NCBI RefSeq assembly: GCF_002549775.1 | Contig: NZ_NMTR01000016.1 | Coordinates: 1-64,000, forward strand | DNA: 64,000 bases | Source: Faecalibacterium langellae | GTDB lineage: Bacteria; Bacillota; Clostridia; Oscillospirales; Ruminococcaceae | Reading direction: 5' to 3' | Part shown: one piece after another, positions 5,925-49,699 of the stretch | Numbering within the stretch: the first letter of the stretch is position 1 | Layout of the letters: every line of letters starts with the position of its first letter | Position numbers and translations under genes: made by a program | The notes under the pieces: model-generated | Databases searched by the model: none | The model's input: the letters and a program-made list of their open reading frames with translations, nothing else | Told to the model about the DNA's origin: nothing

Positions 5925-5963
5925 GAAAAATGGCTGTTGCATCGCAACAGCCATTTTTCTTAC
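5921..5963. terminator. bidirectional terminator between degV and coaBC
   Basis: A perfect 20-bp inverted repeat around an ATC loop (GTAAGAAAAATGGCTGTTGC and its complement) provides T tracts on both strands. It overlaps the last codons of both convergent genes. Confidence 0.9.
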
Positions 5964-7156
5964 GTTGTGCGCCGTTTCAGGATCTCATCCAGAATGGCGT
6001 CTGCCACGTCGGCTTTGCTCATCAGCGGCAGCTCCCGGGCACCGTCCGGGGTGATGAGGGTGACGACATTGGTGTCCACGCCGAAGCCGGCCCCGGCCAC
6101 TTTCAGGTTGTTGGCCACCACCATGTCCAGATTCTTTTTGGTGAGCTTTGCAGAGGAGTTTTCCACAAGGTCGCGGGTCTCCATGGAAAAACCGCACAGG
6201 AACTGGTGGGTCTTCTGCGGGCCGATGGTGCCCAGGATGTCCGGCGTGCGCTCCAGCGGAATGGACATGTCGCCGTCCTTTTTCTTGATCTTGTCATTGG
6301 CCACAACGGCGGGACGGTAGTCGGCCACGGCAGCGGCCATGATGAGCACATCCGTCTGGGCAAAGTGGCTGGTGACGGCCTCGTACATCTGCTGGGCGGT
6401 GGTCACCGGCACGTCGGTGGTGAACTTGACCGGCTGCAGGGCAGTTTCGCCGTGGATGAGGGTCACCTCGGCACCGCGCATGGCGGCGGCACGGGCGAGG
6501 GCGTAGCCCATCTTGCCGGTGGAGTGGTTGGTCAGGTAGCGCACCGGGTCGAGCGACTCCTGGGTGGGCCCGGCGGTGACGGCCACCCGCACCCCAGCCA
6601 GGTCTTTGGGCCGGGCGATGGTGTGCAGGATGTACTCGAGCAGCACGTCTTCCTTCGGCAGGCGGCCGCTGCCCACATCCTTGCAGGCCAGCACGCCGCT
6701 CTCGGACGGGATGACCGTAAAGCCATAGCGCTGCAGCGTGGCGATGTTGTCCTGCGTGATGGGATTTTCCAGCATGCCGGTGTTCATGGCCGGGGAGACC
6801 AGCTTCGGGCACTTGGCGGCCAGCACCACGGTGGTGAGCATATCGTCGGCGATGCCGTGGGCCATTTTAGCGATGACGTTGGCGGTGGCCGGTGCCACCA
6901 GGATCACATCTGCCTTCTTGGCCAGCGAGATGTGGGTGACCTCGAACTTGAAGTCGCGGTCAAAGGTATCCACCATGCACTTGTGGCCGGTGAGGGTCTC
7001 GAAGGTGAGCGGGGTGATGAACTGGGTGGCATTTTTGGTCATGATGACCTCCACGTCGGCCCCCAGCTTGCGCAGTGCACTGGCCACATTGGCCATTTTA
7101 TAAGCGGCGATGCCGCCGGTGACGCCCAGAAGGACGCATTTGCCTTTCAGATCCAT
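5960..7156 (-). CDS. coaBC: bifunctional phosphopantothenoylcysteine decarboxylase / phosphopantothenate--cysteine ligase
   Basis: A 398-residue fusion enzyme for two consecutive steps of coenzyme A synthesis: CTP-dependent joining of cysteine to phosphopantothenate, then FMN-dependent decarboxylation. The N-terminal CoaC domain shows GVTGGIAAYK, the active-site His in VTHISLAKKAD, the PAMNTGMLENP substrate clamp and the Cys in GVLACKDVGSGRL. The C-terminal CoaB domain (from about 185) shows VTAGPTQESLDPVR, NHSTGKMG and the NDKIKK lysines. The ATG at 7156 follows AGGAGG at the usual distance; an upstream in-frame start at 7174 does not. It is divergent from coaX, which acts two steps earlier in the pathway. 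Confidence 0.95.
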   Translation of the reverse strand: MDLKGKCVLLGVTGGIAAYKMANVASALRKLGADVEVIMTKNATQFITPLTFETLTGHKCMVDTFDRDFKFEVTHISLAKKADVILVAPATANVIAKMAHGIADDMLTTVVLAAKCPKLVSPAMNTGMLENPITQDNIATLQRYGFTVIPSESGVLACKDVGSGRLPKEDVLLEYILHTIARPKDLAGVRVAVTAGPTQESLDPVRYLTNHSTGKMGYALARAAAMRGAEVTLIHGETALQPVKFTTDVPVTTAQQMYEAVTSHFAQTDVLIMAAAVADYRPAVVANDKIKKKDGDMSIPLERTPDILGTIGPQKTHQFLCGFSMETRDLVENSSAKLTKKNLDMVVANNLKVAGAGFGVDTNVVTLITPDGARELPLMSKADVADAILDEILKRRTT

Positions 7157-7307
7157 TGGTCTAACCTCCTGCAAAAACGTGCTGTTTCCACATATCTTCC
7201 CTTAGTATAATGCAAAAGTTCCGCCAGCACAACAAAATCTTTCGGCGGGGTTGTATCCTGGGTCAAAATGCGGTAAAATACGGATTGATAAAGAATAGAC
7301 AGGCTCC

Positions 7308-7431
7308 AGCGGCGGACCGGAAGTTTCTCCGAAGACCGTCCGCTGGGGTGGGACCCTGTTGCCGTAGGCAATAGGGCGGGCGATGGAATGGCCCGAATCG
7401 TGTCTGAGGAGAAAGCTCCCGGCACACCGCT
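7308..7431 (+). ncRNA. structured repeat element, copy A
   Basis: A 124-nt element that can fold into a long rod with side hairpins. The outer stem is AGCGG/CCGCT, then CCGG/CCGG, TTTCTCC/GGAGAAA (7324-7330 with 7408-7414), AGAC/GTCT, and an internal hairpin CCCTGTTGCC-GTA-GGCAATAGGG. A second copy with compensatory changes lies on the minus strand at 24983-25108, and a diverged third copy at 25126-25246. Copy A ends 29 bases before the coaX start. Together with the A-rich spacer it fills most of the 7157-7460 gap. Orientation is assigned from the asymmetric inner sequence and could be wrong. Function unknown; no Rfam family is recognised from memory. Confidence 0.6.
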
Positions 7432-7460: not shown

Positions 7461-8357
7461 ATGATCTTAGCCATTGATATAGGCAACACCACCGTCGCCC
7501 TGGGGGGCATTCGGGACGGACGTGTATGCTTTGTGGCGCGCATGGACACGGTGCGCACCCGTACGGCTGCTGAATATCGTGCCGAAATGGATAAAATTTT
7601 TGCGCATCGCCGCCACCCGGAACGGCCCATGCGCTTTGAGGGCGCTGTGCTCACCAGCGTGGTGCCCCAGATCACCGGTGCACTGGCCGAGTGCGCCCGT
7701 CACTACACCGGCAAAAAGCCGGTCATCGTGTCGCCGGACATCCGCACCGGCCTGACCATGGGGGTGGATGAACCCGGCTCTGTGGGCAAGGACCGCCTTG
7801 TGGATGCGGCCTATGCGGCGGCGAACTTTCCGCTGCCGGTGGTCACGGTAGACCTTGGCACCGCCACCACCTTCAACGTGGTGGATGAGGACCGGGTGTT
7901 CCGGGGCGGCGTCATCTGTCCGGGGCTTTCCACCGGGCTGCGGGCTCTGGGCGAACGCTGTGCCCAGCTGCCGCAGGTGCATCTCGGCTCGCCCAAAAGT
8001 GCCATCGGCACCAATACCGAAAAGTGCATGCTGTCCGGCTCGGTGATGGGCACGGCCGTGCTCATTGACGGCATGGTGCAGCGCATCGAAGAAGAACTGG
8101 GCCGCCCGGCTACGCTGGTGGTCACTGGGGGCCTGGCAAAGTATGTCACGCCGCTGTGCCGCCACCCGCTGACCTATGACCCGGAACTGCTCATGAAGGG
8201 TCTGGCATTGCTGTATCAGCTCAACGCTCAGCAGCCCCAGCACCACAGTGCGGGCGGCAGGCATTATGGCCCGCAGAACCAGCATGGCCGCGCCAGACAG
8301 CGCTACCCCAGAAAGCGCACCCGCTGCGAGCGGGCCGACGAAGCACGGACGGGCTGA
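7461..8357 (+). CDS. coaX: type III pantothenate kinase with a C-terminal extension
   Basis: A 298-residue protein. Residues 1 to about 257 are a CoaX-type kinase that phosphorylates pantothenate, the first committed step to coenzyme A. Visible are AIDIGNTTVALG (phosphate loop with catalytic Asp), VGKDRLVDAAYA, VDLGTATTFNVVD, GGVICPGLSTG and VVTGGLAKYV. CoaX proteins usually end near the LMKGLALLYQLN seen here at about 257. About 40 further residues, rich in Gln, His and Arg, have no recognisable fold and may come from a lost stop codon. AAAAGGAAAACAG precedes the ATG. The oxidoreductase gene follows after 28 bases. Confidence 0.93.
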   Translation: MILAIDIGNTTVALGGIRDGRVCFVARMDTVRTRTAAEYRAEMDKIFAHRRHPERPMRFEGAVLTSVVPQITGALAECARHYTGKKPVIVSPDIRTGLTMGVDEPGSVGKDRLVDAAYAAANFPLPVVTVDLGTATTFNVVDEDRVFRGGVICPGLSTGLRALGERCAQLPQVHLGSPKSAIGTNTEKCMLSGSVMGTAVLIDGMVQRIEEELGRPATLVVTGGLAKYVTPLCRHPLTYDPELLMKGLALLYQLNAQQPQHHSAGGRHYGPQNQHGRARQRYPRKRTRCERADEARTG

Positions 8358-23828: not shown

Positions 23829-24971
23829 ATGAATCAACAACAGAACGCGCGCCTGCGCAACGCGGGTTTCGCCACCTTCTTTTTCAGCGGCATCTGCGCC
23901 ATCAGCGCGGGCGTTGTGGTCAGCCTTTTGCAGGAAGAATACGGCTTTGCCTACGGCATGACCGGCACCCTGCTCTCGCTCATGAGCGTGGGCAACCTGC
24001 TGGCAGGTCTGCTTATCGGCATGCTGCCCAGTGTGCTGGGGATGAAGCCCAGTGTGCTGCTGCTCACCATCGGCTATGCGGCGGGCTATGCCATCATGGG
24101 CCTGACCGGCGCAGAGATCCTGCTGGCACTGGCTTTTTTCATGGTGGGCATTGCCAAGGGCAGCGTCATCAACACCTGCACCATTCTGGTCAGCGACAAC
24201 TCCGCCGACCGCACCCGCGGCATGAATCTGATGCACAGCTGCTATGCCTGCGGCGCACTGCTGTGCCCCTTTGTCATTGCAGCGGCGGCAAAGGTGAGCA
24301 CCGCGCTGGCAGTGTTCCTGTTGGCGGCGCTGGGCCTTGTGCTGTGGCTGGTGTATGCCTTCACCCCGCTGACGGGCGGCAAGGCAAAGAACGCGCAGGA
24401 AAAGCAGGCCATTGACTGGAGCTTTCTGCGCTCGGCGCGGTTCTGGCTGCTGACCGGCCTGCTGTTCTTCCAGAACGCGGCGGAGCAGAGCGTCAACGGC
24501 TGGATGGTGACCTATTTTAAAGGCAGCGGCATCATTTCCGGCGCGCTGGCCGCCTACACCGTCACGGTGATGTGGGGTGCCACGCTGGTGGCCCGCCTGC
24601 TCATTGCCTTCGTGTTCCCCTTCAAGAACCCGCGCAAGGCCATGGTGGGCATGAGCGTGCTGTGCACCTTCTTCTATGTGCTGCTGGTCATGGCCCACAC
24701 CCAGGGTGCGGCCATCGTGCTGCTGTTCGCCTTTGCCTTCTCCATGGCAGGCCTGAACCCCACCGCAGTTGCCAGCGCAGGCCGCATGACCAGCGTCACC
24801 AGCATGGGCATCATGCTGCCGGTGGCATCCAGCGGTGCCATCCTCATGCCGTGGATCATCGGCATCGTGGCCGAAAAGGCGGGCCTTGCCGCCGGTATGG
24901 CTTCCAACATCGTGCCCTGCGTGGGCCTGATCATCTTCACTCTGCTGGTGGCAAAGCTGCCGGAGGAGTAA
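23829..24971 (+). CDS. major facilitator superfamily transporter
   Basis: A 380-residue protein with twelve predicted membrane helices. It begins ARLRNAGFATFFFSGICAIS, has the loop 2-3 region SLMSVGNLLAGLLIGMLPS and a DRTRGMNLMHSCYACG segment after helix 5, reminiscent of sugar or oligosaccharide MFS carriers. The substrate cannot be deduced. GTGAGGAAC lies upstream of the ATG. It is a single gene under a promoter with operator-like inverted repeats, so its expression is probably controlled by a local or distant repressor. Confidence 0.85.
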   Translation: MNQQQNARLRNAGFATFFFSGICAISAGVVVSLLQEEYGFAYGMTGTLLSLMSVGNLLAGLLIGMLPSVLGMKPSVLLLTIGYAAGYAIMGLTGAEILLALAFFMVGIAKGSVINTCTILVSDNSADRTRGMNLMHSCYACGALLCPFVIAAAAKVSTALAVFLLAALGLVLWLVYAFTPLTGGKAKNAQEKQAIDWSFLRSARFWLLTGLLFFQNAAEQSVNGWMVTYFKGSGIISGALAAYTVTVMWGATLVARLLIAFVFPFKNPRKAMVGMSVLCTFFYVLLVMAHTQGAAIVLLFAFAFSMAGLNPTAVASAGRMTSVTSMGIMLPVASSGAILMPWIIGIVAEKAGLAAGMASNIVPCVGLIIFTLLVAKLPEE

Positions 24972-24982
24972 AAGGTGATAAG

Positions 24983-25108
24983 GGCCGACGTACCGGAAGC
25001 TTTCTCCTCGGACACGACTCGGGCCATTCCATCGCCCGCCCTACCGCCTGCGGCGGCAGGGTCCCACCCCAGCGGACGGTCCTCGGAGAAACTCCCGGCA
25101 CGTCGGCC
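24983..25108 (-). ncRNA. structured repeat element, copy B
   Basis: A 126-nt copy of the element at 7308-7431, on the opposite strand. The core is nearly identical in sequence, while the helices differ by compensating pairs. The outer stem is GGCCGACGT/ACGTCGGCC where copy A has AGCGG/CCGCT. GGAC/GTCC replaces AGAC/GTCT, and the inner hairpin is CCGCC-GCA-GGCGG instead of TTGCC-GTA-GGCAA. It starts 12 bases after the MFS stop, in a convergent gap. Confidence 0.6.
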
Positions 25109-25125: not shown

Positions 25126-25246
25126 CCAGCAGGACGGCGGGATGTTTCTCCAGCGAATGTCCTGGAGGTGGGGCCCCGGTGCGCCAGCACTGGGGCGGGA
25201 CAGTGTCTAGGGCTGTTCGCGGAGAAATACCTCGCTGGCCTGCTGG
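25126..25246 (+). ncRNA. structured repeat element, copy C (diverged)
   Basis: A 121-nt relative of copies A and B in the opposite orientation to B, 18 bases away. The outer stem is CCAGCAGG/CCTGCTGG, the shared inner stem TTTCTCC/GGAGAAA (25145-25151 with 25221-25227), then GCGAA/TTCGC and a hairpin CCCCGGTGC/GCACTGGGG. The unpaired GGTGGG before the hairpin and GGGCGGG after it are shared with A and B. Its primary sequence is much more diverged than its structure. Confidence 0.5.
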
Positions 25247-25257
25247 GAGGTTGCATT

Positions 25258-25878
25258 TTACTTTTCAATTCCCCGTGCTTTCGCGCTGAACTCGCAGCCG
25301 CAGTAGTCCTGCCGGTACAGGCCGTATTCTTCCGAGAGCTGCAAACTGCGCAGGTAGCCGTTGTGCTTTTTGAAGTCCGAGGGCAGATGTTTCACGCCGA
25401 ACTCTGCTTCCAGCTCCTGCCCGATGGCGTTGATGCGCTTGGCGTCCTTGTGCGGGCTGATGGACAGGGTGGTGGTGAACCAGTCGAAGCCGTTTTCCTT
25501 CGCGTACTGGGCCGCCCGGCGCATCCGCAACCGGTAACACACGGTGCACCGATTGCCGCGCTCCGGCTCGTTTTCAAGGCCGGTGACGGCAGAATAGAAC
25601 TCCTGCGGGTCGTAGTGGTCTTCCACCACGGTCACGCCCAGCGGGTGGGCGGCCGCCACGAACTTTTTCAGTTCTTCGCCGCGGCGGTGGTATTCTGCGG
25701 CAGGCCAGGTGTTGGGGTTATAATAGAGCACCGTGATGTCGAAGTACTGGCACAGCTGCTCCAGCACCGCGCTGGAGCAGGGCCCGCAGCAGGCGTGGAG
25801 CAAAAGGCGCGGCCGTGTGCCGTCCAGATTTTTGAGCACCAGATCCATCTGCTGGGCAAAATTGAGTTGAGTTGCCAT
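25258..25878 (-). CDS. queH: epoxyqueuosine reductase QueH
   Basis: A 206-residue enzyme of the last step of queuosine synthesis, reducing epoxyqueuosine in tRNA; it is a non-homologous replacement of QueG. The Cys-rich hallmarks are LLLHACCGPCSSAVLE near the N-terminus, GNRCTVCYRLRM in the middle and YCGCEFS near the C-terminus, which hold the 4Fe-4S cluster and a second metal site. IPHKD-like SISPHKDAKRIN is also conserved. The ATG at 25878 is preferred to that at 25887, because AAGGATG upstream is then properly spaced. It ends 11 bases from copy C. Confidence 0.93.
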   Translation of the reverse strand: MATQLNFAQQMDLVLKNLDGTRPRLLLHACCGPCSSAVLEQLCQYFDITVLYYNPNTWPAAEYHRRGEELKKFVAAAHPLGVTVVEDHYDPQEFYSAVTGLENEPERGNRCTVCYRLRMRRAAQYAKENGFDWFTTTLSISPHKDAKRINAIGQELEAEFGVKHLPSDFKKHNGYLRSLQLSEEYGLYRQDYCGCEFSAKARGIEK

Positions 25879-25920
25879 TTTTATCATCCTTTGTTATACT
25901 GATTGCAAGCAATTCCTTAA

Positions 25921-25972
25921 AAAGGCTCGCCCCTTCGGGGGGAGCCGGCGCGTCAGCGCCTGAGAGGGTTTA
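25921..25972. repeat. short palindromic repeat upstream of queH
   Basis: GGCTCGCCCCTTCGGGGGGAGCC and GGCGCGTCAGCGCC are adjacent hairpins ending in CTGAGAGGG. The same theme (GGGGAGC...CTGA-GAGGG) recurs in dispersed repeats of Faecalibacterium-like genomes. Confidence 0.5.
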
Positions 25973-31858: not shown

Positions 31859-31934
31859 GTATGCACGAAAGTTTATTCTAAAAAACTCTCAGGCCCACAG
31901 CGATGACTGAGAGGGTCCAAATCAAAACAGAAAG

Positions 31935-44368: not shown

Positions 44369-44400
44369 AACCCGGAAAAATCCGCAGATTTTTCCGGGTT
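44369..44400 (-). terminator. cysS terminator
   Basis: AACCCGGAAAAATC pairs perfectly with GATTTTTCCGGGTT around four bases, and the minus strand continues into GTTTTTC. It follows the cysS stop by 14 bases. Confidence 0.85.
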
Positions 44401-44414
44401 GCAAATTCAAAAGA

Positions 44415-49558: not shown

Positions 49559-49699
49559 TAACTCCTTCAGTCATGGCTGACACCATGCCAGCTCCCTCAA
49601 AGAGGGAGCCCTTGGCAGTGCGGAAAACTTTACGGTTTTGCCAAAGCCCCCCTCATTGAGGGAGGTGGATGCGAGTGCAGCGAGCAGACGGAAGGAGTT
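49559..49699. repeat. dispersed palindromic repeat before a minus-strand membrane gene
   Basis: AACTCCTTC at the left is inverted as GAAGGAGTT at the right, enclosing GCTCCCTCAAAGAGGGAGC, TTGGCA...GCCAA and CCCTCATTGAGGG hairpins. This is the layout of intergenic elements common in Faecalibacterium-like genomes; it directly abuts the stop of the 49700-50158 gene. Confidence 0.6.

Follow-up and report, generated by a model that had tools for sequence, protein, structure and literature searches.

Three copies of a structured element in the window

The DNA analysed here, referred to as the window, is a 64,000 nt stretch of Faecalibacterium langellae (GCF_002549775.1, contig NZ_NMTR01000016.1, positions 1 to 64,000, forward strand). 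Between the divergent genes coaBC (minus strand, about 5960-7159) and coaX (plus strand, 7461-8357), both assigned with Pfam, lies a copy of a structured element, and the coaX start is located 29 nt beyond the end of this copy. Two further copies, 17 nt apart and with their 5' ends face to face, share the gap where an MFS gene (23829-24971, plus strand) and queH (25258-25887, minus strand) converge. The window also carries a 5S rRNA gene at 4-120. The three copies are:

7308..7431, plus strand: element copy, type A, short form (from DNA and R1 matches and fold; neighbouring genes by Pfam)
24983..25108, minus strand: element copy, type A, short form
25126..25246, plus strand: element copy, type B, short form

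R1 is a covariance model built from ten type A copies. The original prediction had claimed three copies of one element, and all three were found in place. The copies at 7308-7431 and 24983-25108 are ~90% identical. The copy at 25126-25246 has a distinct core type, B, whose likeness to type A lies more in architecture and junction motifs than in sequence; R1, although a type A-only model, still reaches it with 32.9 bits. The compensatory helix changes named earlier are real in the three window copies. Core-sense folding of these copies against dinucleotide shuffles gave z scores of -4.6, -8.3 and -9.5, and for each copy 0 of 200 shuffles equalled the native sequence.

Architecture and core types

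The unit is ~110-125 nt long, and consists of a conserved core (P1b, P2, P4 and H3 around a GUGGG/GGGCGGG junction) enclosed by an outer stem that varies in sequence by locus while its pairing is largely kept. The parts of the copy beside coaX are:

7308..7323, plus strand: 5' outer arm, locus-specific, pairing with 7416-7431 with some mismatches
7324..7330, plus strand: TTTCTCC, pairing with 7408-7414 (GGAGAAA)
7333..7338, plus strand: P2 5' strand, pairing with 7399-7405 and replaced by other complementary sequences in other core types
7339..7353, plus strand: junction segment with conserved GGTGGG
7354..7376, plus strand: P4 hairpin CCCTGTTGCC/GGCAATAGGG, with a conserved G-U pair
7377..7395, plus strand: H3 hairpin CGGGC/GCCCG
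7408..7431, plus strand: GGAGAAAG and 3' outer arm

At least five core types share this one plan among 98 copies. P2 reads GGACCG/CGTGTCC in type A, GCGAA/TTCGC in type B and GCAAGTG/CACTTGC in another type. The TTTCTCC/GGAGAAA stem had been described as fixed, which holds for the three window copies but not elsewhere, where it varies and is mostly compensated (TTTCTTC/GAAGAAA in L010; columns 15-21 of an alignment of 32 diverse copies). L010 is a short copy that was flagged as long, and hence falls outside the short-form set of 76 of the 98 copies; left out of this set were the 19 flagged as long and three with deletions (L232, L237 and L241).

Pairing and covariation

In the 32 diverse copies, 97.4% of 842 cells were paired in an alignment fitted to the structure of R1, which favours high pairing, compared with 41-56% in slid controls. 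Changes on both sides were observed at 18 of the 27 pairs. Since the copies share descent, these cells are not independent events. Covariation beyond phylogeny was examined with a home-made, R-scape-like test using its own tree-based null on a sequence-only alignment. It stands in for the second of the two refuting checks named in the original prediction. Three pairs reached E<=0.05, each of them within a proposed helix; P4 contributed two, and the outer stem the third, whose E value lies exactly at the 0.05 limit. A second covariation run with badly registered arms gave two pairs, both in P4. With default scoring on a plain MAFFT alignment, RNAalifold recovered no more than the outer stem, P4 and one short hairpin, and the whole plan emerged from the same alignment only with ribosum scoring. 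The outer arms were counted in 74 copies (L214 and L216 excluded), where 14 positions pair at 53-99%, with several pair types per variable position and up to four Watson-Crick types at a single position. Chance palindromes are ruled out by the fold relative to shuffles, together with the pairing and covariation in the 32 copies.

Distribution of the element

The element is dispersed. The genome of the window holds at least 24 copies, comprising 18 type A places and six from a type B search; the type A DNA search returned 23 matches at those 18 places, five of them being second halves of long copies. R1 matched 14 of 31 Faecalibacterium genomes (E<=0.01), and the covariance search, one of the two refuting checks named in the original prediction, thus yielded many more members. 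R1 was also run on 99 of 118 loci drawn by a short sequence pattern that gives mostly chance matches. In Faecalibacterium sp. I4-3-84 (NZ_CP094466.1) the element is present at loci L135 and L171, with strong R1 matches. The match at L178 was weak (28.7 bits, E 0.0019), and three further loci at E 0.39-0.86 were taken as chance.

DNA searches of 16 genomes from 16 other genera gave no match. A wider model, R2, matched two of 247 genomes of the family, namely the own genome and G007, another Faecalibacterium, in a search whose stricter filters lose weak matches; the genus genomes G014 and G043 within this sample gave no R2 match. The original prediction could not tie the element to a known Rfam family, and in Rfam 15 no family reached its gathering threshold at the element. 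Plasmids gave no match at E<=1e-5, and one exact 19-mer searched in IMG/VR was not found. No printed description of the element was found in a search that left most subscription journals and all of bioRxiv outside. Nine unannotated records named 'Bacteriophage sp.', MT836078.1 and MT835802.1 among them, derive from human faeces and match the element, three of them over at least 80% of its length; these records may be host DNA.

A nested structured module

The long form of the element consists of the element and a separate structured repeat of ~107 nt, located after H3 and before the P2 3' strand. Its entry point is fixed: in long forms elsewhere it follows the position that matches about 7393, and it was seen in type A, type B and other cores. 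BLAST of the module against the window gave no match. Matches at E<=1e-4 are present in at least 27 of the 31 genus genomes, and among the matches listed there are weaker ones in genomes that gave no match to the element. In some genomes the module outnumbers the element by far (G005 and G012, at least 28 places each). Of 20 module places away from known copies, 14 lie, as judged by eye, inside one of two other hairpin repeats. Because the module occurs inside other hairpin repeats too, the long form can be described as one structured repeat nested in another.

A module copy at G000 C55:78564-78670 has GCAAC at both ends, and belongs to a repeat commoner in the genus than the element. A third dispersed repeat, the TCCGCT..GCGGA family, also hosts the 107-nt module, and a rough probe for it matches the window at 44377-44412. 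A glycine riboswitch aptamer is present at L024:344-441, near a long element copy.

Empty sites, inversion and exchange of core types

The element is present in some species and absent from others at the same site. At the locus of L046/L207, G006 has neither the element nor the outer stem. The sites of L056 in G000 and of L236 in G010 are likewise empty, the latter being a less clean case in which the left flank is repeated elsewhere. No target-site duplication was legible at the empty sites examined. These sites bear on a reading in which the core inserts into loops of pre-existing palindromes, so that the outer stems would be target DNA and their 'covariation' would not reflect evolution. 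This would account for locus-specific outer stems around near-identical cores, and it has a parallel in the 107-nt module, found within other hairpin repeats at the 14 of 20 places noted by eye. However, the empty L046 site in G006 has no outer-stem palindrome, nor is there one at the L236 site in G010, the less clean case, and we regard this reading as very unlikely.

Flank matches, some by one flank only, grouped 19 orthologous sites; L009/L197, a weak pair that would make a 20th, is not counted. Between species, the core is inverted at seven of the 19 sites, short and long forms differ at eight, and the core type differs at six, one of them a hybrid (L237). Inversion is clearest where cores run in opposite directions within the same or a near-same outer stem, as in L055/L066 compared with L220 and in L049 compared with L050. 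At several orthologous sites, other species hold an unrelated palindromic repeat in the element's stead.

The hybrid (L237:301-382) joins a type A 5' part to a type B 3' part, as from recombination of neighbouring copies. In G045, L236 and L239 are very similar B-like copies ~380 kb apart that share a 33-nt inverted flank, as if part of a rearrangement. A second palindromic family (CCTCTC..GTC / GAC..GAGAGG) was found at orthologous sites of the element elsewhere, and a probe for it matches the window at 25922-25968, 31898-31915 and 49567-49606.

Both flanks of the coaX locus were located in 25 of 30 genus loci fetched. Among these 25, a full copy is present, besides the own genome, only in G046, where it is of type B and inverted. 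G010 and G045 carry a remnant in which 84 nt of a G046-like type B copy are missing, a hairpin-type deletion. An ordinary conserved RNA, such as a riboswitch or sRNA, regulating neighbours such as coaX would be in keeping with the structure, the covariation and the copy just upstream of coaX. This explanation is strongly disfavoured and in our estimation highly improbable: the neighbouring sequences differ widely from copy to copy, both orientations are found, some copies even sit inside a coding gene, and the 25 coaX loci yielded little beyond the single further full copy and the two remnants. A fixed coaX regulator was rejected, as the element is rarely present at coaX across the genus. The gene-orientation analysis favoured open frames reading towards the element, and we draw no conclusion from it.

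No Y1_Tnp domain (PF01797) was detected at E<=1e-8 in the own genome, nor in eight of the 14 carrier genomes (G000, G005, G006, G007, G016, G021, G042 and G045); the other six have one each at this threshold. Identity with REP/RAYT was rejected because the own genome gave no such domain at this threshold.

An in-frame copy in the CCA tRNA nucleotidyltransferase gene

The open reading frame of the CCA tRNA nucleotidyltransferase holds a copy of the element in G003, G010, G016, G021, G023, G041, G045 and G046. The frame is open, with no stop, in all eight species, and the core is found in either orientation; the copy of G045 is a long form. PolyA_pol and tRNA_NucTran2_2 domains flank the element-encoded part of the protein in G010. 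The gene is without the element in relatives such as G005, G007, G012 and G042, and G006 has a remnant. In-frame residence is thus shown for one gene, with eight of the 98 copies, which probably derive from one ancestral insertion.

Stop codons in the cores were fewer than in shuffles, with a difference significant for no core type, and selection for stop-free frames was rejected on this ground. Because stops are not significantly depleted, high G+C may be what makes an in-frame copy tolerable.

RNA or DNA as the selected form

A fold that matters in DNA alone should leave G-T and A-C mismatches at similar frequency. In the core helices we counted 57 G-U and 4 A-C cells, or 29 and 4 without one conserved wobble, in a count biased by a structure drawn from RNA rules with G-U counted as a pair, and by the shared descent of the sequences. 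This single wobble is conserved in 28 of 32 sequences. In all 76 short copies, the core-sense strand folded better than the complementary strand. For the outer arms, the raw count in 63 copies was 55 G-U to 16 A-C, and a strict count by context gave 32 to 16 (p 0.03), a modest excess over a chance expectation of 0.50-0.58 for the G-U share (random arm pairing gives a G-T share of 0.58). From these two outer-arm counts 13 orthologous duplicates were removed by hand, and some orthologues were kept (e.g. L047, L050, L054 and L057 of the CCA gene). The excess of G-U wobbles over A-C mismatches suggests that selection acts on the RNA of one strand. Such selection has good support in the core, and is only suggestive for the outer arms.

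These counts bear on a reading in which the element is a DNA-level palindrome, kept paired through quasi-palindrome template switching, with RNA irrelevant. Strand switching at hairpins would explain compensated arms, inversions and hairpin deletions together. The in-place inversions, the 84-nt deletion at the coaX locus of G010 and G045 and the merely modest strict G-U excess in the outer arms all fit such a process, whereas the 29 to 4 asymmetry in the core helices (from the biased count), the wobble kept in 28 of the 32 sequences, the better sense fold in every short copy and the conservation of asymmetric junctions argue against it. On balance we consider this reading unlikely.

Interpretation and comparison with known systems

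We conclude that the element is probably a genus-restricted, non-autonomous, RNA-structured palindromic mobile element of the Correia/ERIC/Rickettsia-palindrome kind. The original prediction, setting random palindromes aside, had proposed either a selected RNA or a mobile hairpin element. The evidence supports both, and the two are not mutually exclusive: covariation and the asymmetry of G-U over A-C back the RNA half, while dispersal, presence or absence at the same site and in-place inversion back the mobile half. In such an element the core-sense RNA fold would be the selected state, needed either for spread or for tolerability inside transcripts. Spread may be aided in trans by some host or IS enzyme, the inversions and well-paired arms may derive partly from strand switching at the hairpin, and cores could be homogenised by gene conversion or re-insertion. 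More speculatively, and in our view rather unlikely, the element could be selfish, its replicating unit being the folded core-sense RNA, which would be recognised and then converted to DNA again at hairpins; the genus would then house a nested community of structured modules that insert at each other's fixed points, flip, swap cores and occasionally join proteins.

The element makes it testable whether an RNA fold lets bacterial palindromic repeats spread or survive, and is a warning that covarying hairpins are not necessarily regulatory RNAs. Its copies also offer sequence landmarks by which strains of this important gut genus can be compared.

ERIC and BOX elements are dispersed, mostly intergenic short imperfect palindromes, with variants that carry an internal insertion or an optional module. 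In the present element the insertion is an independent structured repeat found elsewhere, and a conserved multi-branch fold and type switching are added. Correia elements have constant terminal repeats, whereas the outer arms described here differ per locus yet stay paired. Double-hairpin elements of fungal mitochondria are mobile hairpins with variable, compensated stems; the element here is bacterial, larger and multi-branched. It shares with MITEs of the Correia and ERIC type that it is short, non-autonomous and present or absent at orthologous sites. However, its outer arms are locus-specific where MITEs have constant terminal inverted repeats common to all copies, no duplicated target could be read, and no parent element turned up, Y1_Tnp being the one family searched. 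REP/REPIN sequences with RAYT are likewise dispersed intergenic palindromes, but the element is much larger, and the own genome is without a Y1 transposase (E<=1e-8).

Passages of one published account describe Correia repeat enclosed elements of Neisseria as short and dispersed, with reported inversion, and Rickettsia palindromic elements as short palindromic repeats tolerated in frame within protein genes (PMC10969869). The likeness to the former lies in these same three features, and that to the latter in an in-frame palindromic repeat of ~100-150 bp, a size matched here. Rickettsia palindromic elements are found in frame in many unrelated genes, whereas the element was seen so in the CCA gene alone; its core, in contrast, flips, swaps types and can host a second structured repeat, and the phylum is unrelated. 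We would not file it as either a Correia or a Rickettsia palindromic element. Covariation of the RNA type, inversion in place with exchange of cores, and an in-frame position within a housekeeping enzyme are usually separate; here they occur together.
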